From assembly GCA_026770585.1 (NCBI GenBank), contig MU646383.1, positions 684,276-706,071 on the forward strand: 21,796 nucleotides of DNA, read 5' to 3'. The first letter of the stretch is position 1. Each line of letters begins with the position of its first letter. The notes beneath the pieces were generated by a model. That model worked only from the letters and a program-made list of their open reading frames with translations, was not told the DNA's origin and ran no database searches. Source of the stretch: Baffinella frigidus. Taxonomy: Eukaryota; Cryptophyceae; Cryptomonadales; Baffinellaceae. Position numbers and translations under genes: made by a program. Shown one piece after another: positions 338 through 21,796 of the stretch.

Positions 338-403
338 GCAGGCAAGGAAACGGTCGACGACCAGGAGAACTGGATGTGCATTCCAAGGGCCCGCCTCGTA
401 CAG

Positions 404-1406
404 GTTACGCCTCAATAACCCCCTAGCGATTTCCCCTAAAACCCTTTAAGGTATTGACCCCTAAAACCCCTTAAGATTTTTGCACTAGGGTTTAGGGTTT
501 AAACTAAACCCTAAACCCTAAGGGGTTTAGGATCTGGGGAGAAGTGGATGGGCATCCCGCGCACCCGCCTCGTGCAGGTATTAACCCCTAAATAAACCGT
601 TACAGTTTGCCCCTAAAACCCTTTAAGGTATTGATTGACCCCTGAAACCCCTCAAGGTTTTTGCACTAGGGTTTAGGGTTTACACTGAACCCTAAACCTT
701 AGGGGGGTTAAGATTTGGGAAGAAGTGGATGGGCATCCCACGTGCCCGCCTCGTGCAGGTATTAACCCCCCTAAATAAACCCTCAAGGTTTGCCCCTAAA
801 ACCCTTTAAGGTATGAACTCCCAAATGAACCCTTAACCTTAAGGTTTACCCTTAAACCCCTGTAAGGTATTGACCCCGAAAACTCCATCAGGTTTATGGT
901 CTAGGGTTAAGGGTTTACCAGGGTTTATTAGTTTACCCCAAACCCTTAACCCTGGGGGTTTCGGGGTTTGGGACTGGATGTGCATCCCGCGCACCCGCCT
1001 CGTACAGGTACAAACCCTCAAATAAACCCTCAAGGTTGGCCCCTAAAACCACTTAAGGTATTGACCCCTAAAACCCCATCAGGTTTACGGTGCAGAGTTT
1101 AGGGTTTGGTGCAGAGTTTGGGGTTTGCCCTCAACCCTCAACCCTGGGGTTTTGGGGGAAACCCTAAACCCTGGGGGGTTGGGGTTTTGGGGGGTTTGGG
1201 GTTTGGGGGTTTGGGAAGAACTCGCGCCTCGTGCAGGTTTTTCAAACCCCCTAAACCTCTAACCTTTTAGGGTGTCTTAAACCCCCTAAAATCCTTCAGG
1301 GGTTATGTTCTAGGGTTTAGGGTTTAGGGTTTACCCTAGTCACCAAACGTTAACCCTGAACCCTAAACCCTAAACCCTAAACCCTTGGGGTTTGGGGTTT
1401 GTGGGA
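404..1406. repeat. Mixed-polarity telomere-like spacers between E0 copies
   Basis: Degenerate CCCTAAA/CCCTTAA and TTTAGGG/TTTGGGG heptamers fill the gaps between E0 copies. In each spacer the C-rich motif lies next to the donor side and the G-rich motif lies upstream of the next copy, so each spacer can fold on itself. The spacing between successive E0 copies (about 181 and 249 bp) and this shared layout indicate that exon plus spacer was duplicated as a unit. Confidence 0.75.
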
Positions 1407-1426
1407 AACTGGATGTGCATCAGCCC

Positions 1427-1529
1427 TTTAGGTCCTTTAGGTTTTAATTTCGCCCAACATATGCCAACGGCATGCCCTTCCGTAGAAAGGACTGCAGAAA
1501 AAGCGTTTTTGCTTTCGGATCGCGTTCTC
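1427..1529 (+). mobile_element. D1: family D small element inserted in an E0 copy
   Basis: The element begins TTTAGGTCCTTTAGG and includes CGCCCAACATATGCCAACG. It is flanked by CAGCCC at 1421-1426 and again at 1530-1535, a possible 6-bp target duplication. It interrupts the sixth E0 copy: the flanks read GGATGTGCAT on the left and CGTCGTACAGGT on the right, whereas intact copies run straight through. The same sequence occurs in reverse orientation near 19,440-19,520. No clear inverted ends are visible, so the element class is uncertain. Confidence 0.6.
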
Positions 1530-1564
1530 CAGCCCGTCGTACAGGTCCCCTGCTTAGGGTTCAC

Positions 1565-1846
1565 AGATTAGGTTTAGGGTTGAACGCTAACCCCTAACTC
1601 CTAACCCCCAACCCTAACAAACACCAAGCCCTAACCCCTCACCCCTGAACCCTGAACCCTGAACCCTGAGCCCCAAATCCTAAACCCCACGACCCAAACC
1701 CCGAACCCCCCACCCCCCACCCCCCACCCCAAACCCTACACCCATACCTTTAAACCCCAACATTAAACCCTAAAAAAATCAAACCCTAAACCCTAAACCC
1801 GTGACAAAGCCAAACCCAAAATCCCACAACCCAAACCCTAACCCCA
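1565..1846. repeat. Degenerate CCCTAAA-type array
   Basis: C-rich heptamers with many variants (CCCTAAC, CCCCAAC, CCCTGAA, CCCCACC) fill the space between E0 and E1. No gene is seen in it. It would be the intron if E0 and E1 belong to one transcript. Confidence 0.75.
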
Positions 1847-1847
1847 G

Positions 1848-2151
1848 GTCTACTGTGAGGAGTACAGGCGTGTGCAAAAGGCGATCGTGGAGCAGGCGCA
1901 ACCGCGGTTCGTGGCCGTGTTCGGGGGTAGTCGGGGTAAGGGACAGAAAGCACCTTGCGAGTGAACGCCGACGCAGGCGGAGAAGGGTTGTGCGCAGCCG
2001 TGTTAAGGGGTGTTAGGAGTCAGGGTTTAGCGTTAAACCCTCAACACCCCTTGATCGTGACCGTGTGCCGAAGTACCTCGCGCACCCCCCCCAGGTCTAC
2101 TGCGAGGAGTACACGCGTGTGCAAAAGGCGATCGTGGAGCAGGCACATCCC
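1848..2151 (+). other. E1: two copies of an exon-like block
   Basis: Copies start right after CAG at 1848 and 2095. Both read VYCEEY[RT]RVQKAIVEQA. The difference TGT/TGC is synonymous and AGG/ACG gives R or T. The copies diverge after GAGCAGGC: the first continues open for about 20 codons to a TGA near 1962, and the second runs into CCCTAAA-like repeats. The 247-bp offset shows that exon and spacer were duplicated together. The sequence looks helical and charged, with no recognised domain. Confidence 0.5.
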
Positions 2152-2273
2152 TAAACCCCAAACTTGAAACCCGAAACCCGAAACCCGAAACCCGAAACCC
2201 TAAACCCGAAACCCCAAACCCCAAACCCCAAACCCCAAACCCCAAACCCCAAACCCTAAACCTTAAACCCTAG
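2152..2273. repeat. CCCGAAA then CCCCAAA heptamer array
   Basis: About six CCCGAAA-type units are followed by about six CCCCAAA units before returning to CCCTAAA. The variants are grouped in blocks rather than mixed, as expected from local slippage or unequal exchange. Confidence 0.85.
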
Positions 2274-2388
2274 TTTAGGCGGAGCAGCACGCGGCGCTCT
2301 CGCCCCCCGGACCTCTGGCAAAGTACGCGGGCCTCGACGTCGCCTCGGTATTCCCCACCAGGCAAGATTGTAGGGGTGAACTGGGAGA

Positions 2389-2520
2389 GAGAGAGAGAGG
2401 GAGAGAGAGAGGGAGAGAGGGAGAGGGAGTGAGTGAGAGAGAGAGGGAGTGAGTGAGAGAGAGAGAGGGAGGGAGAGAGGGAGAGAGGGAGAGAGGGAGG
2501 GAGGGAGAGAGAGAGAGAAG
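2389..2520. repeat. (GA)n / GGGA-rich purine tract
   Basis: About 130 bases of almost pure purine on the + strand, mostly GAGAGAGG and GAGTGAGTGAGA variants. Open frames through it are low-complexity artefacts. It separates two E2 copies. Confidence 0.9.
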
Positions 2521-2742
2521 GCGGAGCAGCACGCGGCGCTCTCGCCCCCCGGGCCCTTTGCAAAGTACGCGGGCCTCGACGTCGCCTCGGTATTCCCTCA
2601 ACCCGAAACCCGTCGTTTCCTTGAACCCTACACCAGGGCTAAGCACCAAACCCTAAACTGCAAACCCTGAGCCCCAAACCGTAAACTCTGCTCCCCAATT
2701 CCGCAATCTCTCAGCCCCAAGCACGCGGTGCTCTCGCCCCCC

Positions 2743-2783
2743 TAAACCCTAAACCCTAAACCCTAAACCCTAAACCCTAAACC
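2743..2783. repeat. Telomeric insertion inside an E2 copy
   Basis: A 41-base run of perfect CCCTAAA units separates CTCTCGCCCCCC on the left from GGACCTCTGGCAAAG on the right. In the two other E2 copies these halves are directly joined. Nothing of the exon is lost at the junction, so this is an insertion rather than a replacement. Confidence 0.8.
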
Positions 2784-2929
2784 GGACCTCTGGCAAAGTA
2801 CGCGAGACTGGACGCCTTGGTATTCTCTAGTCATTAAACCCGGACACCGAAACCCAAAACCACTGAAACCCAAACCACGCACCCGAAACCCTAAAGCCTG
2901 AAGCCTGAAGCCCAAACCTTAAACACTAA

Positions 2930-3060
2930 TCCCTAAACCCTAAACCCTAAACCCTAAACCCTAAACCCTAAACCCTAAACCCTAAACCCTAAACCCTAAA
3001 CCCCAAACCCTCAACCCAAAACCCTAAACACTAAACCCTAAACCCTAAACCCTAAACCCC
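2930..3060. repeat. Near-perfect CCCTAAA array
   Basis: Around ten consecutive perfect CCCTAAA units, then a few variants and more perfect units. This is one of the cleanest interstitial telomere-type tracts in the window. It is internal and flanked by unique sequence, so it is not a chromosome end. Confidence 0.9.
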
Positions 3061-3066
3061 CCGTAG

Positions 3067-3120
3067 GCGTCCTCAGACCGGATGACAGACAGAGTGCTCA
3101 ACTACCTCAACGTCATGGTC
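3067..3120 (+). other. E3: exon-like block
   Basis: After a TAG acceptor the block reads ASSDRMTDRVLNYLNVMV over exactly 18 codons and then passes directly into CCCGAAA repeats. Only one copy is seen. It has an amphipathic helical look and no recognised family. Its place between other coding-like blocks on the same strand is the main support. Confidence 0.4.
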
Positions 3121-3888
3121 AAACCCGAAACCCGGAACCCGAAACCCGAAATCCTAAACCCGAAACACTTCACCCGAAACCCGAAACCCGAAAACCGAAA
3201 ACCGAAACCCGAAACCCGGATCCGGGGACCCGAAACCCAAAACCCGAAACCCAAAACACTGAACCCGAAACCCGAAAACTGAAAACCGAAAACCGAAAAC
3301 CGAAAACCGGATCCGGGGACCCGAAACCCGAGACCGGAAACCCGAAACCCGGAATCCGAAACCCGGAACCCGAGACCTGGAACCCGAAACCCGAAGCCCG
3401 AAACCCGAAAACTGAACCCCGAAACCCGAATCCCGAATCCCGAAACCCGGAACCGGAGACCCGAAACCCGAAACCCGAAACCCGGAACCCGAAACCCGGA
3501 ACCCGAGACCTGGAACCCGAACCCCGAACCCCGAACCCCAAAACCCGAAACCCGAGACCTGAGACCCGAATCCCGAAACCCAATACCCGAAACCCGATAC
3601 CCGAAACCCGGAACTGGAGACCCGAAACCCGAAACCCGGAACCCGGAACCCGAACGCCAAAACCAGAAACCAGAAACTCGAAACCCGAAATCCGAAACCC
3701 GAAACCAGAGACCCGAAACCCGAAACCCGAAACCCGAAACCTGAACCCAAACCCCTGAACCCGAGACCCCGGACCCGAAAGACCCCGAACCCGAAACCCG
3801 AAACATGAGACCCAAAACCCCAAACCCCAAACCCCAAACCCCAAACCCCAAACCCCAAACCCCAAACCCCAAACCCGAAATCCGGAAC
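3121..3888. repeat. CCCGAAA variant telomere-like array
   Basis: Over 750 bases dominated by CCCGAAA with CCGGAAC, CCGAGAC and AACCGAA derivatives, ending in a CCCCAAA block near 3805-3875. The minus strand is open in all three frames and would encode FRVSGFG-type repeats; these are frame artefacts of a 7-bp repeat without A-rich stop codons, not genes. Confidence 0.9.
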
Positions 3889-3891
3889 CAG

Positions 3892-3930
3892 GTGGTGCCC
3901 ATGCTCGACAAGTCCGCATCCCCGCCCCAG
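3892..3930 (+). other. E4: short exon-like block with both splice signals
   Basis: The block is bounded by CAG at 3889-3891 and by CAG|GTCCTG at its end. It reads VVPMLDKSASPPQ in 13 codons and sits as a unique island inside the CCCGAAA array. It is a 39-bp phase-0 microexon candidate. The family is not recognised. Confidence 0.4.
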
Positions 3931-3944
3931 GTCCTGCGAAACTC

Positions 3945-4290
3945 GAAACTCAACCCCCGAAACCCAAAACCCGAAACCCGAAACCCGAAATCGAAAAACG
4001 AAAACGGAAACCCCACCCTTAAAACCCGAAACACGAAACACGAAACCCTGCACTCTGAACCCGAAACCCGAAACCCGAAACCCGAAACCCGAAAACCGAA
4101 AACCGAAACCGAAAAACGAAAACGGAAAACCTACACTCTGAACCCGAAATACGAAACACGAAACCCTACACACTGAACCCAAAACCCCTAAAATCGAACG
4201 CTGAAACCCCTAAACTCGAAAGCCGAAACCCGAAATCTTTCACCCTATACCGAAAACCTGACACCTAAACCCTCAACCCGAACCTACCGT
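3945..4290. repeat. CCCGAAA array, second segment
   Basis: Continuation of the CCCGAAA-type array after E4, with A-rich derivatives (AACCGAAAACC, GAAACACGAAA). No gene signal. It ends at the acceptor of E5. Confidence 0.85.
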
Positions 4291-4295
4291 TTCAG

Positions 4296-4352
4296 GTCAC
4301 AAAAGGCGTGATGTCGAACCCCGTGGGGATGCCTGACGACTATCTGGTATCG
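4296..4352 (+). other. E5: exon-like block
   Basis: It starts after TTTCAG (4293-4295 is CAG) and reads VTKGVMSNPVGMPDDYLVS in 19 codons before entering CCCTAAA repeats. It shares the phase-0, GTN-start pattern of E1, E4, E6 and E7, where the acceptor is CAG|GT. No clear donor follows. Confidence 0.4.
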
Positions 4353-4358
4353 CCCCCC

Positions 4359-4478
4359 ACCCTAAACCCTAAACCCTAAACCCTAAACCCTAAACCCTAA
4401 ACCCTAGACCCGAAACCCGAAACCCTAAACCCTAGACCCGAAACCCGAAACCCGAAACCCGAAACCCGAAACCCGAAA
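4359..4478. repeat. CCCTAAA then CCCGAAA array
   Basis: Perfect CCCTAAA units followed by a switch to CCCGAAA units, ending in the CAG acceptor of the first E6 copy. Confidence 0.85.
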
Positions 4479-4562
4479 CAGGTGCGGTACCTAGACCTGT
4501 TCTACAAAAATGTCACGTACGATTAACGGACTATCCTAACGTTGACGCCCCGGGTCTCTGGT

Positions 4563-4708
4563 ACAGATCCGTCAACTTAGGAGCGTTTTCGGGCAGGTGC
4601 GGTACCTTGACCTACTCTACAAAAACGTCGCGTACGCGGAACGCGAGACTTCCGGCGCGGCCTTACTTGGCGACGCTGCGGACTTCGAGGTCCTAAGTTG
4701 ACGGATTC
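4563..4708. repeat. Inverted GATCCGTCAACTTAGGA pair around an E6 copy
   Basis: GATCCGTCAACTTAGGA (about 4566-4582) and its near-complement TCCTAAGTTGACGGATTC (about 4691-4708) bracket the intact E6 copy. The CCGTCAACTT core recurs in the foldback at 12661-12821. The exon copy may sit between the ends of a small element, or the motif may be a shared terminal sequence. Confidence 0.55.
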
Positions 4709-4923
4709 GGAAGTTGACACCATGAACGCTGCACCGCACCGGTGTAGGCCTTTGAGGGTTTCCCAGTCGCTTAGCTAGGCCACGCCGGGGCACACGCGGA
4801 AATGTAGGCCACGACAGGGGACGCCAAGTGAACATGTTCCCAACGTTGATCCTGGGGATATGTGCTAGATTGGTAGACGTCGACTGGTACCAGAAATACG
4901 CCAAAAGGCGACCGCAGTACGTA

Positions 4924-4988
4924 CCATAGTAATTAGTTAGGGACCCATAGTAATTAATTTACGGTTCCATAGTAATTAATTAGGGACC
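4924..4988. repeat. AT-rich ~22-bp tandem repeat
   Basis: Three copies of CCATAGTAATTA followed by ATTAGGGAC or a variant. This AT-rich island is unlike its GC-rich surroundings and lies between E6 copies. Confidence 0.75.
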
Positions 4989-5557
4989 CCTTCCTAGGCG
5001 GAACCTGAGTCTTCCGGCGCGGCGCTGCTCGGCGACGCTGCAGACTTCGAGGTAAGCATGGCTTTTCTGCAGAAAGGCCACGCCAGGGCACACGCGGAAA
5101 TGTTCCTGATGTAAATTCTGGGGATGTGTCCAACGTTTTTTGTACCGGACTGGCACCAGGTGTACCAGATTGGCACCAGGTGCCTGTCTGGTACACCAAA
5201 CGTTAACAGCATAGAAACGCGACAGCGCGTCAAGAACGTCGCGTACGCGGGACGCGAGTCTTCCGGCGCGGCCTGACTTGGCGACGCGGCGGACTTCGAG
5301 GTGCTAAGTTGACGGGTTCGGAAGTTGACACCCTAACCTCACGAGTGGGAGTTTTAGAACGCGACGTTTCGCTTGGAAGGTGTTTTGTGGTACAAATTCC
5401 ACATTGTTGCGGCGGAGGGCTACTGAAGGGGTTTTTTTGAACGTTCATAGAAAAAAAACATATGCAAAAATACGTTTTTTTTTACGACAAAGGTCGTGCA
5501 CTACGCGTGGCGCTGTTGAAGGAGGTTGAATAGGAGGAACTACGTAGAAGAGCCTAA

Positions 5558-5660
5558 GATTCAATGAAGCTTCCTAATAGATTCCATTAGGCTTCCTAGT
5601 TGATTCGATGAGGCTTCCTAGTTGATTCAATTAGGCTTCCTAATTGAACCAATTAGATTT
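5558..5660. repeat. 22-bp tandem repeat (AGGCTTCCTAGTTGATTC)
   Basis: About four and a half copies of a 22-bp unit, GATTCNATTAGGCTTCCTAGTT, each slightly diverged. No coding signal. It lies just upstream of the first E7 copy, separated by a short unique stretch. Confidence 0.8.
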
Positions 5661-5956
5661 CCGGATTGAAATCGACTGGCTGCTGGGGCAGGTGCTCAGA
5701 GCGGCGCTCCCAAAGGAGGCAGTGCCCCTCATTAATTCTCGAGACGGAGCCCCCCAGAACCCTGGAATTCGGGGGAGTTTACGTGACTACCTTTATACCG
5801 GAAAATTGCTAAAATAAGTGAAATTAACCAATATTCCTGTTGAAATGAAACGATCGGGGCAGGTGCTCAGAGCGGCGCTCCCAAAGGAGGCGGTGCCCCT
5901 CGTCGACGCCCTCGTCTCCTGCTACGGTACCCCCTACCCCCATACCCTTTGCATCC

Positions 5957-6066
5957 GCACCCTGCACCCTGCACCCTGCACCCTGCACCCTGCACCCTGC
6001 ACCCTGCACCCTGCACCCTGCACCCTGCACCCTGCACCCTGCACCCTACACCCTGCACCCTGCACC
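5957..6066. repeat. (CCCTGCA)n array
   Basis: About fifteen tandem CCCTGCA units, a two-base variant of CCCTAAA, almost perfectly homogeneous. Frames through it are open on both strands and should not be read as genes. Confidence 0.9.
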
Positions 6067-6118
6067 TTCAACCATACACCTTGTTTCCCGCTACGGTACT
6101 CCCTATCCCCATACCCCC

Positions 6119-6268
6119 GGAGGTGGAGTTAGAATCCATCCGGAGGTGGAGTTAGAATCCATCCGGAAAATGCTCGTATGAGCGGCCGACACGGGGTACA
6201 GTAAGTGGCACAATGCGTAGCATGTGCGGCGCTGACGCTGGTTGTTTGGCAATAAATTATCAATCTCT
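6119..6268 (+). mobile_element. C1: family C element with 12-bp target duplication
   Basis: A 150-bp element begins GGAGGTGGAGTT and ends TCAATCTCT. It is flanked on both sides by CCCCATACCCCC (6107-6118 and 6269-6280). The related E7 copy at 5921-5960 reads from GCTACGGTACC through the same region without an insertion, which serves as an empty site. The first 23 bases of the element are duplicated in tandem (6119-6141 and 6142-6164). No terminal inverted repeat and no ORF are visible. Confidence 0.8.
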
Positions 6269-6280
6269 CCCCATACCCCC

Positions 6281-6480
6281 CGCATCCACACCCTCCACCT
6301 AAATCGCCTGCATCCACACCCAACACCTAAACCCCCTGCATCCGCACCCTACACCTAAACCCCCTGCATCCACACCCTCCACCTAAATCGCCTGCATCCA
6401 CACCCAACACCTAAACCCCCTGCATCCGCACCCTACACCTAAACCCCCTGCATCCACACCCTCCACCTAAATCGCCACAC
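6281..6480. repeat. 27-bp tandem repeat in a three-unit higher-order pattern
   Basis: Units of the form CTGCATCCACACCCTCCACC plus TAAATCG recur with three alternating versions (CTCCACC, CAACACC, CTACACC). The trio itself is repeated, giving a period of about 82 bases. It probably grew from the same heptamer stock (CCTAAAC, CCCTGCA). Confidence 0.8.
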
Positions 6481-6540
6481 CCTCCACCCTCCACCCATCA
6501 CCTTGAACCTTGCACCCTACATCCCATACCTGCTACGGTA

Positions 6541-6742
6541 CGCGAAGTCCCCTACCCCCTACACCCTATTAACCATTGTTCCAGTTTTAACAGCGATTCA
6601 GTGAGATGTTTAACACCCTGCACCCCGCACCATAACACGCAACACCATGCATCCTGAACCCTGCACCCACCACCCCCCCAAAAAAAACCCAAGCCCTAAA
6701 ACCTAAAACCTAAACCATAAAACCTACACCCCAAACCCCAAG
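6541..6742. other. Degenerate heptamer spacer
   Basis: Loose CCCTGCA, CCTAAAA and ACACCATGC variants with no coding-like block. It leads to the first E8 fragment. Confidence 0.6.
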
Positions 6743-7019
6743 CCAGGCGGGGACGACGAACGGACCCTACCCTAAAGTTGACGTTCCTGGTTCCCAGTAT
6801 AACAGGGATGTCAAACCGCAGGAAGGCAGTACCGGGCTGTAACAAGGCGGTACAAAAAGGTACAAGCCAGTACAAAAAGTTACTACCGTCACGTCCAAAT
6901 AAGCCGTCCATCTAACATATACACACACAAGAATTTTCACCGCCATCATGCTAATCCCCTCAGCCCCTCAGCGCTACCTCCCCAAACCCCAACCCCTAAA
7001 CCATGAGCCCTCACCCCCT

Positions 7020-7138
7020 TCACGCAGCGGACTACGAAGGGAGTTGTCTTCGAACCTGACGAAGTGAGGATATCCGTAGGACCAGCTTATGACCCCTACG
7101 GTACTGCCTACCGTAGGTCCTGAGAAGTATTCTCTTGA
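7020..7138. mobile_element. B3: rearranged family B element
   Basis: ACGCAGCGGACTACGAAGGGA matches the left end of the two full B elements at 12917 and 14616. A downstream stretch with CTACCGTAGGTCCTGAG matches their middle in inverted orientation. It lies directly before the left target duplication of C2. Confidence 0.5.
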
Positions 7139-7147
7139 CCAGGAGGG

Positions 7148-7281
7148 TAGGAGGTGGAGTTATAATCCGTCCGGAAAATGCTCGTATGAGCGGCCGACAC
7201 GGGGTACAGTAAGTGGCACAATGCGTAGCATGTGCGGCGCCGACGCTGGTTGTTTGGCAGTAAATTATCAATCTCTCTTGG
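7148..7281 (+). mobile_element. C2: family C element with 9-bp target duplication
   Basis: A 134-bp copy, starting TAGGAGGTGGAGTT and running to about TCAATCTCTCTTGG, is closely similar to C1. It is flanked by CCAGGAGGG at 7139-7147 and 7282-7290. The duplicated target is the start of E8, including its CAG acceptor, so the insertion has doubled a candidate splice site. Confidence 0.8.
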
Positions 7282-7460
7282 CCAGGAGGGGATGACGAAA
7301 GGGCGCGGCTCGAGATCTCAAACCCCGAAACCCCGACCCCTAACCCCCAACCCTAAGCCTCAGAAACAGGAGGGGATGACGAACAGGCCTCGCTCGGGAT
7401 CTAGAACAGTAGGAAGGCTCCCGCCATCGACCTCTCTAACCCCCTAAGAGAGAGACCTTT

Positions 7461-7522
7461 ATGGCTGCCAAGGCGGCCGCCGTGTATGCACCCCCGCCGA
7501 GGCTGCTTCTCAGCAGGACCTA
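7461..7522 (+). repeat. YAPPPRL repeat, copy 1
   Basis: A GC-rich stretch reads AAAVYAPPPRLLLSRT. Its reverse complement recurs at 19,384-19,420 as AAMYAPPPRLRLSRT, with a shorter copy near 19,618-19,650. It is a dispersed block shared between the two halves of the window; whether it is exon or transposon is not clear. Confidence 0.6.
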
Positions 7523-7895
7523 CGCCCTAACTCCCAAAACCCTTGACCCAAAAAACAAAAAAACAAAAACAAAAACAAAAAAACCACAACACCAACTCCC
7601 GAACCAGGAGGGGACGATGAAAGGGCGCGGCTCGGGATTTCGAACCGTAGGAAGGCCACCGCCATCGACCGCGTGCACAAGGCACTACACCCCAAGCCCT
7701 GAACCCCAGCCCTGAACCCTGAACCCTGAACCCTGAAGGCCACCGCTATCGACCGCGTGCACAAGGCAATGCACTCCAAGCCCTGAACCCCAAACCCCAA
7801 ACCCCAACGCCTGGACACGAAACCCAAAACTCGAAAATCATTTCGAACCGTAGGGAGGCTACCGCTATCGACCGCGTGCACAAGGCACTGCACCC

Positions 7896-8102
7896 CACAC
7901 CATGAACCCCAAATCCTAAACCCTCAACCCTCAACCATAAAACCCCAACCCTGAACCCTAAACCCTAAACCCTAAACCCTAAACCCCAAACCATGAAGCC
8001 TGAACTCTAAACACGAAACCCGGAACCTGGAACCCAAAAACTTAAAACTTGAACTCTGAGCCCGAAACCTAAACCCTAAACCCTAAACCCAAACCCCAAA
8101 AG
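7896..8102. repeat. CCCTAAA/CCCGAAA mixed array
   Basis: Telomere-like heptamers with several variants and no gene signal, ending at the AG acceptor of E9. Confidence 0.8.
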
Positions 8103-8147
8103 GCGACGATCGACCTCGAGATTCTGCACAAGTCGGCGGAAGCCAAC
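8103..8147 (+). other. E9: exon-like block
   Basis: After AAAAG the block reads ATIDLEILHKSAEAN and continues open into ILSSHAEVSP. It is the only unique GC-rich island in about 350 bases of repeat. Downstream, related sequences near 8241 (MHKKSQTDF) and 8355 (IHRKIWTRF, ending in ACCG|GTGAGA) look like two copies of a further short exon. No family is recognised. Confidence 0.35.
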
Positions 8148-8407
8148 ATACTTTCTTCACACGCCGAGGTTTCACCCCGAACCCCAAACTCTAAACTCTA
8201 AACCTTAAATCCAACCTCCAACCCCTGATCCCTAAATCCTATGCACAAGAAGAGCCAGACCGATTTTTTGGCAAGTGCACGAAGAACACTAGACCCTAAA
8301 CACTAAACCCTGATTCCTAAATCCTAAACCCGAAAACCTAAACTCCAAACCCTAATACACAGGAAAATTTGGACCAGATTTTCGACGATGAAGGAGGCAG
8401 CCACCGG

Positions 8408-9298: not shown

Positions 9299-9448
9299 TA
9301 AGCCCTAACTCGATCCAGCAGCGGGATGTTGCAGCAGCACCCTGGAGGCAAGAGGACGCGACCTTAACCCTTAACCCTTAACCCTTAACCCTTCACCATA
9401 AACCCTGAATCCTGAACCCTGAACCATACACCCTACCCCTTAACCCCA

Positions 9449-9486
9449 AATAATAAATAATAAATAATAAATAATAAATAATAAAT
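9449..9486. repeat. (TAAATAA)n AT-rich microsatellite
   Basis: Five or six TAAATAA units in a row. This is again a 7-bp period, though the composition is quite unlike the C-rich repeats around it. Confidence 0.85.
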
Positions 9487-9717
9487 GAAAAACTCTGAAC
9501 CCCTAACCCTAAGCCCTAAACCCGCTCCAGAAGCGGGATGCAGCAGCACCCTGGCGGAAAGAGAGAGCGAACTCAACACTCAACCCTTCACCCAGAACCC
9601 TACTCTCCAAAGCTTCCACCTACAATCCTACGCCCCAAAACGTAATGACAACCCTACATCTAAATAATGAAAGATACACCTTACACCACAAACAACAAGC
9701 GAAGAATAATTCACAAT

Positions 9718-9780
9718 AAACCATAAACCATAAACCATAAACCATAAACCATAAAACCATAAACAATAAGCAATAAACCA
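9718..9780. repeat. CCATAAA heptamer array
   Basis: CCATAAA units in tandem, a one-base variant of CCCTAAA, ending before an E10 copy. Confidence 0.85.
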
Positions 9781-10029
9781 ATCTCAGAAGCGGGATGCAG
9801 CAGCACCCTGGCAGAAAGAGGAAGCGCGCCCTCCCGCACTCCGGTCGAGCCCTACACCCTAACCCCTAAACCCGGTCGAACCCTACACCCTAACCCCTAA
9901 ACCTGGTCGAACCCTACACCCTAACCCCTAACCCCTAAAACCTAACCAAATCAAGCCAAATCAAACTAAACGCTAAACCCCAAACGTCAAAACCTAAAAC
10001 TCCCACGCGGCGCCCCGCACTCAGGTTCT

Positions 10030-10910
10030 GCGATGGGGCTTAGTGTTTAGGGTTTAGGGTTTGGGGTTTGAGGTTTGGGGTTCAGGATTCAGGGTTTAAT
10101 GTTAACGCGTTACACTTGAGGGTTTAGGGTTCAGATTCTAGGGTGTGGGGTTTAGGGTTTAGGGTTTAGGGTTGAGGGGCGCTCCCACGCGGCACCCCGC
10201 ACTCTGGTCGAACCCTACACCCCAGACCCTAAAGCCTAAACCCTAAACCCTAAACCCTGGACCAGCTTTATGCTTTACAATGAGGGATTGAGGGTTCAGG
10301 GTTGAGGGCTAAGGGTTCAGGTTCTAGGGTGTAGGGTTGAGGGTTCAGGATCCAGGACCAGGTTTGACTCTTTACAATTCAGGGTTTAAGGTTCAGGGTT
10401 CAGGGCTTAGGGTTCAGGTGCTAGGGTGTAGGGTTGAGGGTTGAGAGGCGCTCTCGTGCGACGCCCCGTACTCAGGTCTAGGGATTGCGCGTAGAACACT
10501 GCCAGCGAGAAAATTTCGCAGAGGACGTGAAGACCTTTTTAAAACATTGTTGTCGCTGTCACAGCGACTATAATGTGTCTGAGACACATTGTAGTGTCTT
10601 CACGTCCTCTGCGAAATTTTCTCGCTGGCAGTTTAGTAACGTGGCTAACGTTCACGCTTAACAGTTCACACTGGTTTTACGGTTTTATGTTCAAGGTTAC
10701 TGTTTGAGGTTTAGGGTTCAGGGTTTGGGGTTTTTCATACAGGGTTTCGGCGTTACACTCAAGGCTGTAGGGTTTGGGGTTTAGAGTTTGGGGTTCAGGG
10801 TTTAGGGCTTATGGCTTAGGGTTTATGGGTTATGGTTGATGGTTTATGGCTTAGGGTTTAGGGTTTAGGGTTTAGGGTTTAGGGTTTAGGGTTTGGGGTT
10901 TGGGGTTTAG
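10030..10910. repeat. Telomere-like array in the opposite polarity
   Basis: Here the + strand carries TTTAGGG, TTCAGGG and TTTGGGG units, whereas almost all arrays to either side have the C-rich motif on the + strand. The E10 second-part copies inside keep the + orientation, so this is not a simple inversion of the whole segment. A foldback element sits at 10498-10632. Confidence 0.85.
10498..10632. mobile_element. Foldback element with perfect 37-bp inverted ends
   Basis: Arms 10498-10534 and 10596-10632 are exact reverse complements, starting ACTGCCAGCGAGAAAATTTC. The 61-bp centre contains two nested hairpins, TCGCTGTCACAGCGA and AATGTGTCTGAGACACATT. No ORF. Perfect arms suggest recent insertion or conversion. 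I could not identify a clear target duplication. Confidence 0.8.
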
Positions 10911-11022
10911 GGTTTGCTGGAGGCACCCTGGCGGCAAAAAAAAAAAGAAGAAAAAGAAAAAGCGCGCCGTCCCGTGAGGCGCCCCGCACTCAGGTCGAAA
11001 CATAAACCCTCAACCCTCAATC

Positions 11023-11098: not shown

Positions 11099-11325
11099 CC
11101 CAAAACCCAAACCCCAAACTATATAAACCCCAAACCCCAAGCCCCAAGCCCCAAACCCCAAACCCCAAACCCCAAACCNNNNNNNNNNNNNNNNNNNNNN
11201 NNNNNNNNNNNNNNNNNNNNNNNNNNNNNNNNNNNNNNNNNNNNNNNNNNNNNNCCCCAAACCCCAAACCCCAAACCCCAAACCCCAAACCCCAAACCCC
11301 AAACCCAAACCCCAAAATTCTAAAC
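11099..11325. repeat. CCCCAAA array containing an assembly gap
   Basis: Homogeneous CCCCAAA units on both sides of 76 N bases (11179-11254). The gap lies inside one array, so its real length may be very different and no gene need be missing. Confidence 0.9.
11179..11254. other. Assembly gap (76 N)
   Basis: A run of undetermined bases inside a uniform heptamer array. It is probably a placeholder for a collapsed repeat. Confidence 0.98.
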
Positions 11326-11340
11326 CCTAAACCCTAAACT

Positions 11341-11995
11341 AGGCAGCGTTCCGGGTCTGGCGGAGCAACTGGGGATGGAATCGCGAGAGATTGGTAATTT
11401 TTTACCAAACAACTAGCGCCAGCGCTGACATGCCCTACACATTGTGCTACTTACTGTACCCCATGTCGGCCGCTCTTACGAGATTTTCCCGGATGGATTC
11501 TGTCTCCACCTCCTACCGATGGAACCGCGATCAGAAGTGCAAGGCGGAGGCCTCAACCCTAAACCAACCCTCACCCTACACCCTAAACCCTGAACCCTGA
11601 ACCTTAAGACCTCATCCCTGTACTCTAAACCAACTGAGGATGGAAGCGCGATCAAAAGTGCTAGGTGCTGAAGGCCTACACCCTCAATCATCAACCCTGA
11701 ACCCTGAACCCTAAACCCTGAACCCTCAAGCCTGAACCCTAAACCCTAAGCCCTAAACCCTGCACCTTAAACCAACGGGGGATGGAACCGCGATCAGAAG
11801 TGCACGGTGGAGGCCTCAACCCTAAACCAACCCTCACCCTACCCTAACCCCTAAACCCCAAACCCTAAACCCTGAACCCTGAACCCTGAACCCTAAACCC
11901 TGAACCCTAAATCTGAAGACCTCAACCCTGTACTCTTAACCAAGTGGAGATGGAACCGCGATCAGAGGTGCAAGGTGGGGGCCAAGGCGCTGAAG
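11341..11995 (+). other. E11: repeated exon-like block, four or five copies
   Basis: The 5' part (11342-11386) reads AAFRVWRSNWGWNR. Copies of the 3' part at about 11517, 11637, 11775 and 11945 read [RG]WNRDQ[KR]C, with the last continuing KVGAKALKDS. The first copy is interrupted by C3. It is rich in tryptophan and basic residues and matches no family I know. Telomere-like CCCTAAA/CCCTGAA repeats separate the copies. Confidence 0.45.
11387..11517 (-). mobile_element. C3: family C element with 13-bp target duplication
   Basis: The reverse complement begins GGTAGGAGGTGGAG, matching C1 and C2 along its length, and ends CCAATCTC. It is flanked by GATGGAATCGCGA (11374-11386) and GATGGAACCGCGA (11518-11530), which differ at one position. 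Other E11 copies run through this sequence without interruption. Being in the opposite orientation to C1 and C2, it shows that both orientations are tolerated. Confidence 0.8.
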
Positions 11996-11999
11996 GACT

Positions 12000-12821: not shown

Positions 12822-12916
12822 ATGCCCCCTCTGGGATGTCACACACGGCATTTCAAGCCGCCCGCACTGGTCAAACTGGTTAAACTGGTCAAACTGGGGT
12901 GAATGGCGCCGCCGCT

Positions 12917-13080
12917 CCCCACAAATCGGACTTCGACGGGACTTTGAATCACCCATAAACGATGAGTCCTAGGACCCGACGTTAGGCAATCCGTAGGGAT
13001 ATAGGAGGGGTTCCTACGGATAAGGTAACGGAAACGTTGCCAGATTTGAGCCAAAAATCCCTTCGTAACCCGCTGTGTGG
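12917..13080. mobile_element. B1: family B element
   Basis: It begins CCCCACAAATCGGACTTCGA and ends CCCGCTGTGTGG. It matches B2 (14616-14778) throughout, including TAGGGGTTCC-like and CTACGGATAAGGTA segments. The ends are inverted, CCACACAGCGG in consensus. Both full copies are preceded by CGCTC. It is non-coding and MITE-like. Confidence 0.75.
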
Positions 13081-13084
13081 CGGG

Positions 13085-13260
13085 TGCACTAGGACCAACA
13101 CGGCCGCCAACCCTAAACCCTAAACCCTTAACCCTAAACTCTCAACCCTAAACCCTTCACCATGACTGATCGACCAGGAGAACTTCAAACTCTAACCCCT
13201 ATTCCCAGAACCCAAACCTCCAAAACACAAACCCTACGCCCTAAACCCTAAACCCTACAC
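13085..13260. repeat. Degenerate CCCTAAA spacer
   Basis: Short CCCTAAA runs and variants resume here after the foldback cluster, with no gene visible. Confidence 0.75.
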
Positions 13261-13407
13261 TAGGACTGCCCAACCCAGGCGACACGCCACCACAGAACTC
13301 TTAACCCTCAACTCTTACCCCTCAACTCTAACCCCTAATCCAAAACCCTGACCGCCAATAAACTCTAAACCTAAACCATACACTAGGTATCCTCGACCCA
13401 GACGAGA

Positions 13408-13411
13408 CACC

Positions 13412-13485
<74 letters not shown>

Positions 13486-13610
13486 ACCCTAACCCCTAAC
13501 CCCTCACCCCTAACCCCTAACCCCCAACCCCTAACCCCTAAACCCTAAACCCTAAACCCTAAACCCTAAACCCTAAACCACAAACCACAAACCCTAAACC
13601 CGAAACCCCA
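13408..13610. repeat. CCCTCAA, CCCCTAA and CCCTAAA array
   Basis: Three heptamer variants follow each other in separate homogeneous blocks. This is the clearest example of block-wise switching in one array. Confidence 0.9.
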
Positions 13611-13885
13611 CACCAGACCCAGGCGGCACCCCTCCACACAACTCTTAGCCCTAAACCCTAAACCCTAATCCCTAAACCCTGAACTCTTGACCCTGAACCC
13701 TCAACCCTAGCCCCTAATCAAAACCCTTAACCCGAAACCCCAAACTCTTACCCCTAATCCCCAAAACCAAACCGCTCAACCCGAAACCCTAAACCCTAAC
13801 CCCCACACCAGACCCAGGTGGCACCCCTTCACACCTGCGCATGCCGCCTTATCTTCCACCCCACCAAGGGGCAGGCCCCCTAGCA

Positions 13886-13972
13886 ATTTGACCATCAAGG
13901 CCCTTGTAATTTGACCATCAAATTACAATTGTAATTTGACCATCAAATTACAATTGTAATTTGACCATCAAT
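13886..13972. repeat. Tandem palindrome TTGTAATTTGACCATCAAATTACAA
   Basis: Units of 25 bp repeat nearly perfectly about two and a half times, with a partial copy at the start. The unit is nearly self-complementary (TTGTAATTTG / CAAATTACAA around ACCAT), so the array can form a row of hairpins. It lies in the tail of an E12 copy. Confidence 0.8.
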
Positions 13973-14189
13973 GGAGGCCGGGTCTGAGTGGGATCGCCGA
14001 CCCAACGTGCAGCGTGTACATGGCCTCTCTCACCCAAACCCCCACACCCTAAACCTTCAAAATTACGCCTGATTTCCTGCGCCTAAAACCCCAACCGATA
14101 TACCACAAACCCTAAACCCTAAACTCCAACCCAGGTATCCTCGACCCAGGCGGCACACCTTCGCATCTGCGCATGCCCCCGCATCTTCC

Positions 14190-14615
14190 ACCCCACCAAT
14201 GGGGCAGGCCCTAGCGATCCTCCACATTAAGAGATCCTCCACTTTAAGGACCGACAGCCCGAAAGTCAACAGTTCAAAACTCATTGTGACAGCCCAAAAG
14301 TCAACTTTGCCTCTGTGGGAGGAGGGCCGAAGCGCGTATCTCAGAATATATATGAACAGTCGAAATCACAGACGAACCGCTCACCTAGATGGGGTGCTAT
14401 GTTCTGTTTCCTGCGGGACCACACGAGAATGCTGGAGGGGCCTATTTAAGTCTGCTTTTACAAGTGGGCATTTTTGTAGTAACTTTCGTGAGGTTGGACA
14501 CGTAACTGTGCGAAAGTAGCCCAGTCACGAGGTTGGTTACCTGTTGTAGTACACACGCACGTTATTGTAGGGCGCGTATTTTTGGGGGTCTTCTCTTCTC
14601 GTGTCCTCCTCGCTC
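14190..14615. other. Spacer without a supported gene
   Basis: It contains a direct repeat, GACAGCCC[GA]AAAGTCAAC at about 14250 and 14289, and ACGAGGTTGG-like repeats near 14490-14535. One frame is open for 106 codons from 14199, but it begins inside the E12 tail and shows no domain or copy-based support. Confidence 0.5.
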
Positions 14616-14778
14616 CCCACACAGCGGACTTCGAAGGGAGTTTGAATAACCTCTAAGCGATAAGACCTAGGACCGTACGGTAGGCAACCCGTAGGGACAC
14701 AGAGGGGTTCCTACGGATAAGGTAGCGGAAAGGTAGCCCGATTTGGGCCGAATATCCCTTTTTAGCCCGCTGTGTGGG
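14616..14778. mobile_element. B2: family B element
   Basis: Starts CCCACACAGCGGACTTCGAA and ends AGCCCGCTGTGTGGG, giving inverted ends of about 12 bp. The internal sequence aligns with B1 at most positions. Confidence 0.8.
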
Positions 14779-15185: not shown

Positions 15186-15250
15186 CTCTGACATGATACC
15201 GACATGTCCACAACGTCCCCCCCCCCGAGGAGACATCTGTTTTTGCAGTA

Positions 15251-15367
15251 CAGGGCTACCTCGCTCATAAGAAACAGCCCCCCCCCAAGGACCACCGTAG
15301 GGCCCTAGGCATAGGTCTACCGAAGGGTTTTAGGGGGCGGCGCTTTCTTATGAGCGAGGTGCCCCTG
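15251..15367. mobile_element. A1: family A palindromic TA element
   Basis: It begins CAGGGCTACCTCGCTCATAA and ends GAGCGAGGTGCCCCTG, with TA directly outside both ends. The arms pair over nearly the whole length (TCATAAGAAA / TTTCTTATGA, then C-rich/G-rich tracts), and the centre contains GGGCCCTAGGCATAGG. At 117 bp with no ORF it is a MITE with a Tc1/mariner-like target. Confidence 0.85.
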
Positions 15368-15572: not shown

Positions 15573-15674
15573 GCGGCTCTTCGCGGCCCGCTTTTACCAC
15601 TTGATACCAGGGCCCGGCCCCACAACTTTCGAACATATATTCTCCAAAGACGCTTTCCCGTATCTTTCGCTCTA

Positions 15675-15785
15675 CAGGAGTACCTCGCTCATAAGAAAGC
15701 GTCCCTTCTCCCCGGACCACCATAGGACCCTAGAAATACTGTAGGGTCCTTGGGGGGGGCGCTCTCTTATTAGCGAGGTGCCCCT
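15675..15785. mobile_element. A2: family A element
   Basis: Starts CAGGAGTACCTCGCTCATAA after TA and ends TTAGCGAGGTGCCCCT before TA. It is slightly decayed: the right end has lost its final G. Confidence 0.8.
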
Positions 15786-15900: not shown

Positions 15901-15958
15901 CTCCTGAACCATTGCCTCGAGGACAGTGGCCCGTCCCTCCCGGGACGCCCTCGATCCG

Positions 15959-16034
15959 TTAGGCCCTTTAGGTTCTTCGAGCTCCCAACATAGGCGGACG
16001 CCGGAACTGGTTCTACAGAAAAGCCATTCGAGGC
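15959..16034 (+). mobile_element. D3: family D copy
   Basis: CCCTTTAGGTTCTTCGAGCT, then CCAACATAGGCGGACGCCGG and TTCTACAGAAAAGCC. It is almost identical to D4 (17887) and D5 (19652). All three lie in the right half around the RING gene. Confidence 0.65.
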
Positions 16035-16145: not shown

Positions 16146-17123
16146 TCACGAAAGCACGCACGAAAGCTCTGGATCAGGGCACTCGATCCTCGCATAGGAG
16201 CAGCGCCCCTCGTGCTCCGCGAGCAGCCGGCTCTTCAGCTCCGTCTCGCAGTGCCCGCACTTCACCGCGCGGTGTTCGCACGTCGCTTTGTGCTCGGGCA
16301 GATCCTTCCGAAGCGGCGACTCCTTGCAGCCCTCGTTGGCGCACTTGACCGGCACCCATCCACACTCCCCGAGGTGGGCCGGCAGCTCTCCCACCCTTCC
16401 CCTCCAAACGCACCCCGCGTCCTTCTGGCGGTTCTCCTCCAAGCGAGCCACCAGCCCGGGCCTGGTCCCCGTCGAGTCCAGACCGCGCTGCCGCAGCTCG
16501 GTGAAGGTCATGGAGGCAGCAGGCGCTGATCCGGGCGTCTCGTTCCCCTTCTTCCCCTCCGCATTCTCGCACCGCAGCCGCAGCTGGGAGATCACGCCCT
16601 CTACCGGGCGCGCTCGCACCAGCTTCAACCCGTCTGTCTTGTAGCGACACACCGGACACTCCCTTTTCTCGCGAAGCGCCTTGATGTAGCACGCCCTGCA
16701 GCAGCAGTGCCCCTCGGGGCAGCCGCTCATCGGCTCGACCATCAGGCCGAAGCACAGCGCGCAGACGCAGTCCTGGAACTTGATCTCGAGCAGGTCTGGG
16801 TCGATCCACCCATCGGTGGGCGCGGCTGAGAAACCGCCCGCCCCTACCGCTGCCCCGCCCCCGGTTGCCAGCTGGGTTCCCTGCAACAGGCTTTCGATCC
16901 TTGTATGCAAGATCCGCCAGGTCTGGAGATGAACTGCGCGCCTTTCTTGGTCAGCTTCTTCGTCATCGTCCTCCTCCTCCACCTCTTCCTCCTCCTCCTC
17001 CTCCTTTTCCTCCCCCTCCTCCTCCTCCTCCTCCGAGAGGACGAGTCCAGCGGCAGGAGCGGCTGCGCTACCGCTCGACCCGCCCGCCCCAGCAGCTGCC
17101 CCGCCCCCGATTTCTGACGACAT
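16146..17123 (-). CDS. RING finger / SAP-like / TRAF-type zinc finger protein, probable E3 ubiquitin ligase
   Basis: The 325-residue ORF is the only long intact gene here. I chose the ATG at 17121-17123 (MSSEIGGGAAAGAG); the frame stays open upstream with no ATG, so an upstream exon is possible. Residues 31-60 are almost all E/D. A C3HC4 RING lies at about 121-159: CALC, CPEGH, C142, C145 and CPVC. A SAP-like motif (LRQRGLDSTGTRPGLVARL) lies at about 210-228. Three zinc-finger units of TRAF/SIAH type follow at about 238-315, with C/H ligands including H250/C254, C261/C266/H278/C282 and C289/C292/H304/C308. Such proteins transfer ubiquitin from E2 enzymes to substrates held by the zinc fingers; a SAP motif would suit nuclear or nucleic-acid contacts. 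No C-terminal MATH domain is present. A GTGCGTG donor-like site near the stop means the true 3' end could be spliced. Confidence 0.85.
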   Translation of the reverse strand: MSSEIGGGAAAGAGGSSGSAAAPAAGLVLSEEEEEEGEEKEEEEEEEVEEEDDDEEADQERRAVHLQTWRILHTRIESLLQGTQLATGGGAAVGAGGFSAAPTDGWIDPDLLEIKFQDCVCALCFGLMVEPMSGCPEGHCCCRACYIKALREKRECPVCRYKTDGLKLVRARPVEGVISQLRLRCENAEGKKGNETPGSAPAASMTFTELRQRGLDSTGTRPGLVARLEENRQKDAGCVWRGRVGELPAHLGECGWVPVKCANEGCKESPLRKDLPEHKATCEHRAVKCGHCETELKSRLLAEHEGRCSYARIECPDPELSCVLS

Positions 17124-17886: not shown

Positions 17887-17962
17887 TCCTTTAGGTCCTT
17901 TAGGTTCTTCGAGCTCCCAACATAGGCGGACACCGGAACTTATCCTGCAGAAAGGCCATGCT
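17887..17962 (+). mobile_element. D4: family D copy
   Basis: Starts TTTAGGTCCTTTAGGTTCTT, continues CATAGGCGGACACCGG and ends CCTGCAGAAAGGCC. It is followed by CTTTCGGATC, as D1 is, so the two share a longer 3' part than D3 and D5. Confidence 0.65.
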
Positions 17963-19383: not shown

Positions 19384-19650
19384 TCAGACGCAGCCTCGGT
19401 GGGGGTGCATACATGGCGGCGGTGTTGTTATTAATGCTTTCTCTGCAGATCCCTTCTACGGAACGGCGTGTCGTTGGCATATGTTGGGCGAAATTAAAAC
19501 CTAAAGGACCTAAAGGATCAAGGTCTCTCACTTGCACCTCTTCCCCCGTTAGTACACACCGTGTAGAGTGAGAGAGTGAGAGAGTGCTCAGCATGACCTC
19601 TCTCTCGCTACGTCATGCTCAGACACTGCCTCGGTTGGGGGTGCATACAT
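19384..19650 (-). repeat. YAPPPRL repeat, copies 2 and 3
   Basis: TCAGACGCAGCCTCGG (19386) and TCAGACACTGCCTCGG (19620) each run on to GGGGGTGCATACATG. On the minus strand the first reads AAMYAPPPRLRLSRT, matching the block at 7461. Each copy is followed closely by a family D element, one inverted and one direct. Confidence 0.65.
19440..19520 (-). mobile_element. D2: family D copy, inverted
   Basis: The reverse complement contains TTTAGGTCCTTTAGGTTTTA and CGCCCAACATATGCCAACG, as in D1. On the + strand it is open and reads VVGICWAKLKPKGPKG; D1 reads VGICWAKLKPKGPKG on its minus strand. CTCTGCAG at its start looks like a splice acceptor. Confidence 0.65.
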
Positions 19651-19651
19651 G

Positions 19652-19725
19652 CTCTTTAGGTCCTTTAGGTTCTTCGAGCTCCCAACATAGGCGGACACCG
19701 GAACTGGTTCTGCAGAAAAGCCAAG
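19652..19725 (+). mobile_element. D5: family D copy
   Basis: TTTAGGTCCTTTAGGTTCTT through CATAGGCGGACACCGG to GTTCTGCAGAAAAGCC. It lies between GCATACATGC and GCATCGGTGTTG, where the related sequence at 19,412 continues without it. Confidence 0.65.
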
Positions 19726-19785: not shown

Positions 19786-20135
19786 CGCGGCGTAGGTGTG
19801 GACGAGTACAGGGGTACCTCGCTCCTAAGAAACCGCCCCCCCCCAGGAACCTACAGTAGGCCTATGCCTAGGGCCCTATGGTGGTCCTAGGGGGGGGGCA
19901 GTTTCTTATGAGCGAGGTACCCCTGTAGGTGAGACGAGAGGGAGGGGCGGGACGGAGAAAGGCGAGGGCAGCAGGGTGGGCACCGAAAGCGGGGGGGCTG
20001 GAGGAGGAAAGGTGACAAAGCATCGGGTGAGGGCTGTCTCTGAGTGGGAGAGAGAGGCCATGTGCCAGAGGATGGGCACGGGAAGGGACGACGCTTCGCG
20101 TGGGTGCCGGGGAGGGACTCGAGTGGGGTAGACCC
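19786..20135. repeat. P repeat, copy 2 (carries A5)
   Basis: This aligns with 14,845-15,140 on both sides of the A5 insertion. After A5 it continues GGTGAGACGAG, GGAGGGGCGGGACGGAG and on to GGGTGCCGGGGAGGGACTC. Confidence 0.7.
19809..19925. mobile_element. A5: family A element with an empty-site paralogue
   Basis: A 117-bp element, CAGGGGTACCTCGCTCCTAA to GAGCGAGGTACCCCTG, with TA at 19807-19808 and 19926-19927. The flanks read GACGAG-TA and TA-GGTGAGACGAG. The P repeat copy at 14,868 reads AAGAG-TA-GGTGAGACGAG, so one TA was duplicated. Confidence 0.9.
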
Positions 20136-20268
20136 GACGCTGCATGTATTTTGTGCAGGTTTGAGGTCGTTTTCGCACAATTTATCACAGGTTCGAGGTC
20201 ATTCTTGTTGTTTTTGTGATGAAGAAATCCATCACTTCGTCACTCGGGGCGGTCCCAGCGATTACGTA

Positions 20269-20384
20269 CAGGGGTACCTCGCTCACAAGAGACCGCCACC
20301 CCCCTTGGACCACCATAGGGCCCTAGGCATAGGCCTACTGTAGGGTCCTAGGGGAGGCTGTTTCTTATGAGCGAGGTACTCCTG
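20269..20384. mobile_element. A6: family A element
   Basis: CAGGGGTACCTCGCTCACAA to GAGCGAGGTACTCCTG, 116 bp, with TA on both sides. The centre GGCCCTAGGCATAGGCCTAC is intact. Confidence 0.85.
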
Positions 20385-20393
20385 TACAAGTTT

Positions 20394-21767: not shown

Positions 21768-21796
21768 CCCCCCCCCCCCCCCCCCCCCCCCCCCCC
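21768..21796. repeat. Poly-C run at window end
   Basis: 29 consecutive C bases up to the edge. This may be a true homopolymer in a C-rich element arm, or a sequencing or assembly artefact. Confidence 0.9.

Follow-up and report, generated by a model that had tools for sequence, protein, structure and literature searches.

Tandem exon duplication combined with mutually exclusive splicing is known from Dscam-type genes, and repeated sequence that adds to intron mass is known in the form of introner elements. The Dscam-type combination is likewise mentioned in the excerpt of PMC11378527 used here, in which brown-algal ROCO genes are described as having shuffled 72-bp leucine-rich repeat (LRR) exons, which are whole, of fixed length and phase, and encode a repeat protein. 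For interstitial telomeric sequences at double-strand breaks, the part of PMC7215372 used here reports telomeric insertions without target change and one with target duplication, and of 40 informative loci 31 had bases in register with the repeat. The subject of the present analysis is a stretch of 21,796 nucleotides of the cryptophyte Baffinella frigidus (contig MU646383.1, positions 684276-706071, reaching the contig end; assembly of 382 Mb in 1364 contigs), hereafter the window, in which exons of a spliced gene, designated E0-E9, are accompanied by copies of themselves lying in introns with telomere-like CCCTAAA repeats. These copies are probably the debris of small tandem duplications that spared the exons, accumulated in restless introns, and not an array of alternative exons.

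The window resembles Dscam-type arrays in that exons have been copied in tandem within a gene and in frame, but its copies are mostly fragments that do not carry both splice sites, some contain stops, and signs of a regulated array are not seen. With the brown-algal ROCO genes (PMC11378527, in the excerpt used) it shares the presence of many small copied exons in an algal gene, whereas the relatives of the present gene hold each segment once. The likeness to introner elements lies in repeats adding to intron mass; however, the spacers consist here of heptamers, GA runs, an 11-bp minisatellite (in the sampled locus L026) or unique DNA, and a common intron unit with splice sites was not seen among them, although no dedicated introner search was made. 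In the literature, as judged by titles and the openings of abstracts, nothing was found that deals with telomere-like introns or fragments of exons in cryptophytes.

The gene was recognised with a query of 288 residues, composed of one copy each of blocks E0-E9 and pieces of later blocks, which retrieved three proteins, the best of them P0001 with 61% identity over 73% of the query (E 5.5e-79). With P0001 as query, ten other proteins were obtained at E<=10, nine of which (P0004-P0012) the first search had not retrieved. They include P0007 of Guillardia theta (44%, E 3.5e-115) and, as a weak match over 8% of the query, P0012 of Hanusia phi (E 3.6e-3). These homologues speak for a cryptophyte and against a dinoflagellate origin, which the AG|G acceptors and GC donors had at first suggested. 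Slices of P0006 from residue ~148 to ~358 match the window collinearly on the + strand and score above shuffled slices. Judged from sequence, E0-E9 (342-8168, + strand) is thus a stretch of ~210 residues of a spliced nuclear gene for a conserved protein, so far known from cryptophyte-like sequences only, and its segments are single in every relative that covers them (eleven aligned, several of them partial). Pfam searches at E<=10 gave no match for the exon peptide, nothing for P0002 and, for P0001, one sub-threshold match with none above the cut-off. In the PDB the exon peptide was unmatched and P0001 had two insignificant matches (E 0.077 and 0.55), and an IMG/VR scan with a 53-residue piece confirmed no relative. 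The AlphaFold model of P0006 is poor (mean predicted local distance difference test score, pLDDT, of 50), and for this reason no fold search was undertaken. Upstream of the window, at a distance of 8.1-9 kb and ahead of a gap of 8084 N, two further exons match the N-terminal domain of P0004, scoring slightly higher against it than against the similar C-terminal domain (57 vs 50), and presumably belong to the same gene. The second of these exons is present three times, the third copy with two silent differences, and the first has by eye a decayed partner ~180 bases downstream. In P0004 a VKIGDHE..NG..RY.AW domain occurs at both ends (residues about 16-50 and 625-660), of which P0001 carries the C-terminal one.

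Each of the ten recognised exons has a complete, open and phased copy in the window. With borders chosen by eye, these are E0 (342-403, 62 nt, GKETVDDQENWMCIPRARLVQ, acceptor AG and donor GT), E1 in the two complete copies E1a (1848-1895, acceptor AG, donor GC) and E1b (2095-2142, donor GC, VYCEEYTRVQKAIVEQ), E2 in the two complete copies E2a (2279-2347, AEQHAALSPPGPLAKYAGLDVAS) and E2b (2521-2589, with one L to F difference), E3 (3067-3117), E4 (3892-3930), E5 (4296-4346), E6b (4597-4689, 93 nt), E7b (5863-5926, 64 nt), E8c (7608-7681, 74 nt, donor GC) and E9 (8103-8168), the last exon recognised by homology, all on the + strand. Homology together with alignment against shuffled sequence identifies all of these except E1a and E2b (shuffle alignment) and E1b (homology), and E6b was found in a genome search as well. 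An acceptor AG followed by G is present in 10/10, the donors are GT in 8/10 and GC in 2/10 (E1 and E8), and the introns between E0 and E9 are of phase 0 save that between E7 and E8.

Copies were found by self-alignment of the window after masking of heptamers and by aligning the exons one by one to the window, each with 100 shuffles, and both approaches bear out the tandem exon copies described in the first-pass annotation. For E0 (alignment 341-404), the copies at 538, 721, 973 and 130 beat every shuffle, and those at 262 and 1407 pass the 95% level only. Upstream of complete E0 lie two start-bearing partial copies, at 118-159 (alignment covering 130-159) and at 240-275 (up2, exon part 262-275), and downstream follow the end-bearing partial copies b (538-634), c (721-825) and d (973-1077), each with the start of the intron, a weak end piece e (1222-1236, 12/15 identical by eye and outside the shuffle-test list) and copy f (1407-1544, above the 95% level at 1407-1420), which is broken by a dispersed element. 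E0b and E0c form a tandem repeat of 181 bases, intron included, and the array of E0 copies runs on unbroken through its introns. The alignments further gave E1 twice, E2 three times, E6 four times, E7 twice and E8 five times, with a short internal E8-like piece at 6805. The third E2 copy, E2c (2719-2816), appears in two pieces at 2720 and 2782. Partial copies of E6 are the start-bearing a (4482-4521) and the end-bearing c (4998-5051, 54 nt, in frame and with its own AG and GT) and d (5231-5302, containing a stop); those of E7 are the start-bearing a (5692-5730) and an end piece, E7c, with the start of the intron (6079-6116, 33/38 identical, outside the shuffle-test list); and those of E8 are the start-bearing a (7286-7323) and b (7370-7434, decayed and containing a stop) and the end-bearing d (7728-7765) and e (7840-7884). 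E3, E4, E5 and E9 are present once, and a match at 13171 resembles chance. The copies, all on the + strand, show about 3-21% divergence from the complete exon, and neighbouring copies lie ~80-610 bases apart. The earlier statement that E0, E1, E2, E6, E7 and E8 each occur two to seven times therefore holds if fragments are counted; more than one complete copy exists of E1 and E2 only, with E6c as a short complete one.

The order of the partial copies is strict. Among the pieces above the 95% shuffle level, 6/6 that retain the first base of the exon are found upstream of its complete copy (130, 262, 4482, 5691, 7283 and 7367), and 7/7 that retain the last part are found downstream (538, 721, 973, 4995, 5231, 7728 and 7840). 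This count of 13 pieces covers E0, E6, E7 and E8; the split E2c (2720/2782), E0f at 1407 and the internal E8-like piece at 6805 were left unclassed, and the weaker pieces E0e, E0f, E2c and E7c fit the same order by eye. Such an order is what a tandem duplication with a breakpoint inside an exon predicts, irrespective of which strand is coding. One exon would stay intact and a fragment would be added, a start piece before it or an end piece after it. The introns would thus grow through frequent small tandem duplications and through the gain of repeat arrays, including those of the telomere-type CCCTAAA, and since such duplications would be tolerated, exon fragments would accumulate in introns and decay, with the mRNA most likely taking one copy per exon.

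The same pattern recurs elsewhere in the genome. Out of 22 sampled stretches of 4 kb, 14 were all N and 8 were usable, with heptamer fractions of 0.34 (L009), 0.14 (L017), 0.09 (L019), 0.35 (L021), 0.11 (L023), 0.11 (L026), 0.02 (L027) and 0.02 (L030); frames in these loci were chosen as open, by eye, and L009 and L019 are neighbours. Three of the eight (L009, L026 and L023) show the order seen in the window, with 10/10 pieces correctly placed relative to the longest copy. L009 contains eight copies of a minus-strand exon, the longest of which runs to an assembly gap and is the last in gene sense; 5/5 start-bearing pieces lie ahead of it. Short pieces alternate with long ones, and two that are internal were left unclassed. 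In L026 the longest copy, with a donor GT, is preceded by two truncated copies (2/2), and the spacers, made of the 11-bp minisatellite, are heptamer-free. L023 has two start pieces, the longest copy and then a frame-shifted end piece (3/3, by eye). A similar trio in L019 is less clear, L021 and L030 are ambiguous, an exon-copy pattern was not recognised in L017 and L027, and four peptides from the random loci had no match in Pfam. Units repeated at L002 8954-10000 and L003 1-271, which by their motif are putatively ankyrin-like, would be a natural protein repeat to be kept apart from exon debris.

Several observations weigh against duplications of this kind. Some concern the intron flanks, for which pairs of 40-base flanks were compared with the 95% level of random pairs. 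A simple tandem duplication would predict a common intron ahead of a copied exon start. However, start-bearing copies of E1, E2, E6, E7 and E8 lose identity 2-7 bases before the exon in 7/7 pairs, and their acceptor-side flanks score 0-10 against a 95% level of 16, which 0/7 pairs from these five families reach. The copies of E1, E2 and E7 are 94-97% identical despite such unlike flanks; the exception is the E0 pair up2-a, whose upstream intron is common to both. The donor-side flanks reach the 95% level in 8/15 pairs only, namely in E0 (4/6), E6 (1/3, E6b-d) and E8 (3/3), and in none of E1, E2 and E7. The order rule holds only in part for further, less sharply delimited families at 9.3-14.2 kb. 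These exon-like families on the + strand, recognised as sequence repeats, comprise one at 9316-10998 (members at 9316, 9528, 9784, 10001, 10183, 10452 and 10918), one at 11366-11996 (11366, weak, 11518, 11631 and 11778, the longest at 11941-11996) and one at 13385-14211 (13385, 13616, weak, and 13811, the longest at 14131-14211). The piece at 13811-13878 has the exon end, yet the longest copy of its family lies downstream of it, and 10918 lies downstream of 10001, 10183 and 10452. Because their exon limits are not fixed, these families were left out of the order count; because they are mixed, confidence in exon-sparing duplication was lowered by a small step to its present level, while the alternative-exon explanation gained a little and that of an assembly artefact less still. 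Further adverse points are that the rest of the window (13.6 kb, 8.2-21.8 kb) yielded none of the C-terminal segments conserved in relatives (SAREYHIRAKAKQLGIWLDPSKR and later), that five residues between E2 and E3 (TYAVQ in P0006) are without an exon, and that a frame-free test for codon periodicity, run on pairs picked automatically, gave no significant signal in the window (P=0.86), upstream (P=0.30) or in random loci (P=0.91).

The failure to find the C-terminal segments would be explained if the locus were a decaying pseudogene and the copies part of its break-up, which is unlikely. The relatives' segments, AREYHIRAKAKQLGIWLDPSKR among them, are conserved to Guillardia, and in addition to the TYAVQ gap, E9 departs from the relatives after SAEA. 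In this respect the proposal that the gene is being dismantled has something in its favour, but the open, phased copy of every recognised exon, with splice sites in phase, argues against decay of the E0-E9 part, and similar debris is found in other loci. Moreover, parts of the gene may be unassembled, given the contig end at 21796 and the 8084-base gap upstream. A run of C at 21768-21796, at the contig end, and a stretch of 76 N at 11179-11254, inside a CCCCAAA array, are signs of assembly trouble at repeats.

Rather unlikely is the Dscam-like alternative, in which the copies would be mutually exclusive exons held by selection and spliced singly, except perhaps for E1, E2 and E6c. Indeed, E1a/b and E2a/b are complete, open and symmetric (phase 0) with few differences, some of them silent, and E6c is in frame. 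The first-pass annotation had seen in silent changes a sign of past selection, and its quoted codon differences in E6, E0 and E8 are present in the copies. With reading frames fixed by homology, comparison of the copies with the complete exon counts 42 silent differences over 165.5 sites and 31 non-silent ones over 500.5, a ratio of non-silent to silent change per site of 0.24, the comparisons not being independent. Variable columns, each counted once, fall on the three codon positions as 15/11/29 of 55 (P=0.0023 vs 1/3), so that differences are indeed mainly at third positions of one frame. However, when one copy is simulated as free and its partner as accepting silent changes only, the third-position share comes to 0.46-0.47, close to the observed 0.53 (P=0.15 vs 0.45). 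The silent differences, as read from the sequences, show constraint on the gene, and since one constrained copy per pair explains the third-position share, they need not mean selection on the copies. In subsets picked after inspection of the data, third positions account for 28/46 columns without E8b (P=0.02) and for 24/36 without all visibly dead copies (P=0.007 vs 0.45), and the visibly dead copies alone give 7/8/9 by codon position, without a third-position excess. A large alternative-exon gene, as had been suggested, is further opposed by the lack of one splice site or of part of the exon in most copies, by stops in E6d and E8b, by insertions in E2c and E0f, and by the single-copy state in relatives, and E2b alters a leucine that is conserved in 7/10 relatives covering that site. 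What stands of the original interpretation is that tandem copying took genuine exons of a genuine gene, at times together with stretches of intron, that a single reading frame applies, and that traces of coding constraint are present.

The sharp 5' limit of identity at the acceptor, in 7/7 pairs of five families, could be explained modestly by a quick turnover of repeat introns, which could wipe out flank similarity, or boldly by copying bounded by the splice site, in which an RNA-linked or repair process, and not ordinary duplication of intron and exon, would have copied exons starting at the acceptor. The bold explanation is improbable, as E0 up2-a has a common upstream intron, and the downstream intron is common in pairs of E0, E6b-d and E8. 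Equally improbable is its extension, according to which the lineage copies exons from the acceptor through a process linked to splicing or break repair, telomerase-type repeats fill the breaks, and introns grow genome-wide. An artefact, in which paralogue or haplotype copies were misjoined, is very improbable even in so gap-rich an assembly, since the copies differ from the complete exon and are strictly ordered, the E0 array forms one continuous stretch with its introns, the pattern repeats in three other loci, and a genome search with P0001 at E<=0.001 found E6 of the window itself and nothing else (7 candidates were scored; a weak test for small exons).

Exon-sparing duplication does not require the heptamers, which had been proposed as its cause. 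Telomere-like heptamers, masked with up to 4 mismatches in 14 bases, make up 38% of the window, compared with 4% after shuffling, and 0.4% of the complete exons. The claim that they separate the copies is only partly right: in 8/19 spacers (E0up1-up2, E0up2-a, E1a-b, E2a-b, E6a-b, E6b-c, E6c-d and E7a-b) the heptamer fraction is below 0.2, and copies occur across these heptamer-poor spacers as well as in L026 and L023. How telomeric repeats can arrive is illustrated by E2c, in which, by comparison with E2a and E2b, CCCCCC and GGACC are separated by 41 bases of CCCTAAA units (2743-2783; perfect array 2740-2781), so that TAAACCC units interrupt the exon at a site whose empty form is given by E2a and E2b. 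This array resembles the interstitial telomeric insertions at double-strand breaks (PMC7215372, in the part used) in lying inside an exon copy with no exon base clearly lost and with CCC in register with the repeat; unlike those insertions, the present arrays are numerous, long, in many cases degenerate and intronic, and a role of telomerase is hypothetical here. The relative P0010 holds a PKPQALNPKPKTLK stretch that resembles translated heptamers, and relatives may likewise have heptamer introns.

If exon-sparing duplication is general, introns of this alga would be a readable record of small duplications, dated through fragment decay, and the rate and mechanism of intron growth could be counted within one genome. 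The question is also raised how the spliceosome selects one intact exon amid near-identical fragments bearing real splice sites, and exon debris of this kind could mislead gene predictors.

Other features of the window include an intact single-exon open reading frame on the minus strand (16146-17121, 325 residues from Met), for which Pfam gives a zf-TRAF match above the cut-off and sub-threshold RING and SAP matches; 29 relatives of it were found, three of them named Baffinella frigidus. Imperfect palindromic elements of ~120 bp (...TACCTCGCTCATAAGAAA...) occur in both orientations at 15241-15367, 15665-15785, 19806-19927, 20264-20387 and elsewhere, and the family is also present in L026, L027 and L030. 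Dispersed elements of ~50-75 bp with common beginnings lie at 1451-1501, 15955-16027, 17887-17959, 19656-19723 and 19439-19490 (minus); one of these interrupts E0 copy f, and a similar pair is found in L030 at 1039 and 3709. An element of ~130 bp is present three times, at 6142-6277, 7146-7277 and 11377-11517 (minus), one of which stops ~8 bases short of E8 copy a. Finally, a 168-bp repeat with 84% identity occupies 12913-13080 and 14611-14777, with look-alikes, by eye, in L021 and L023.

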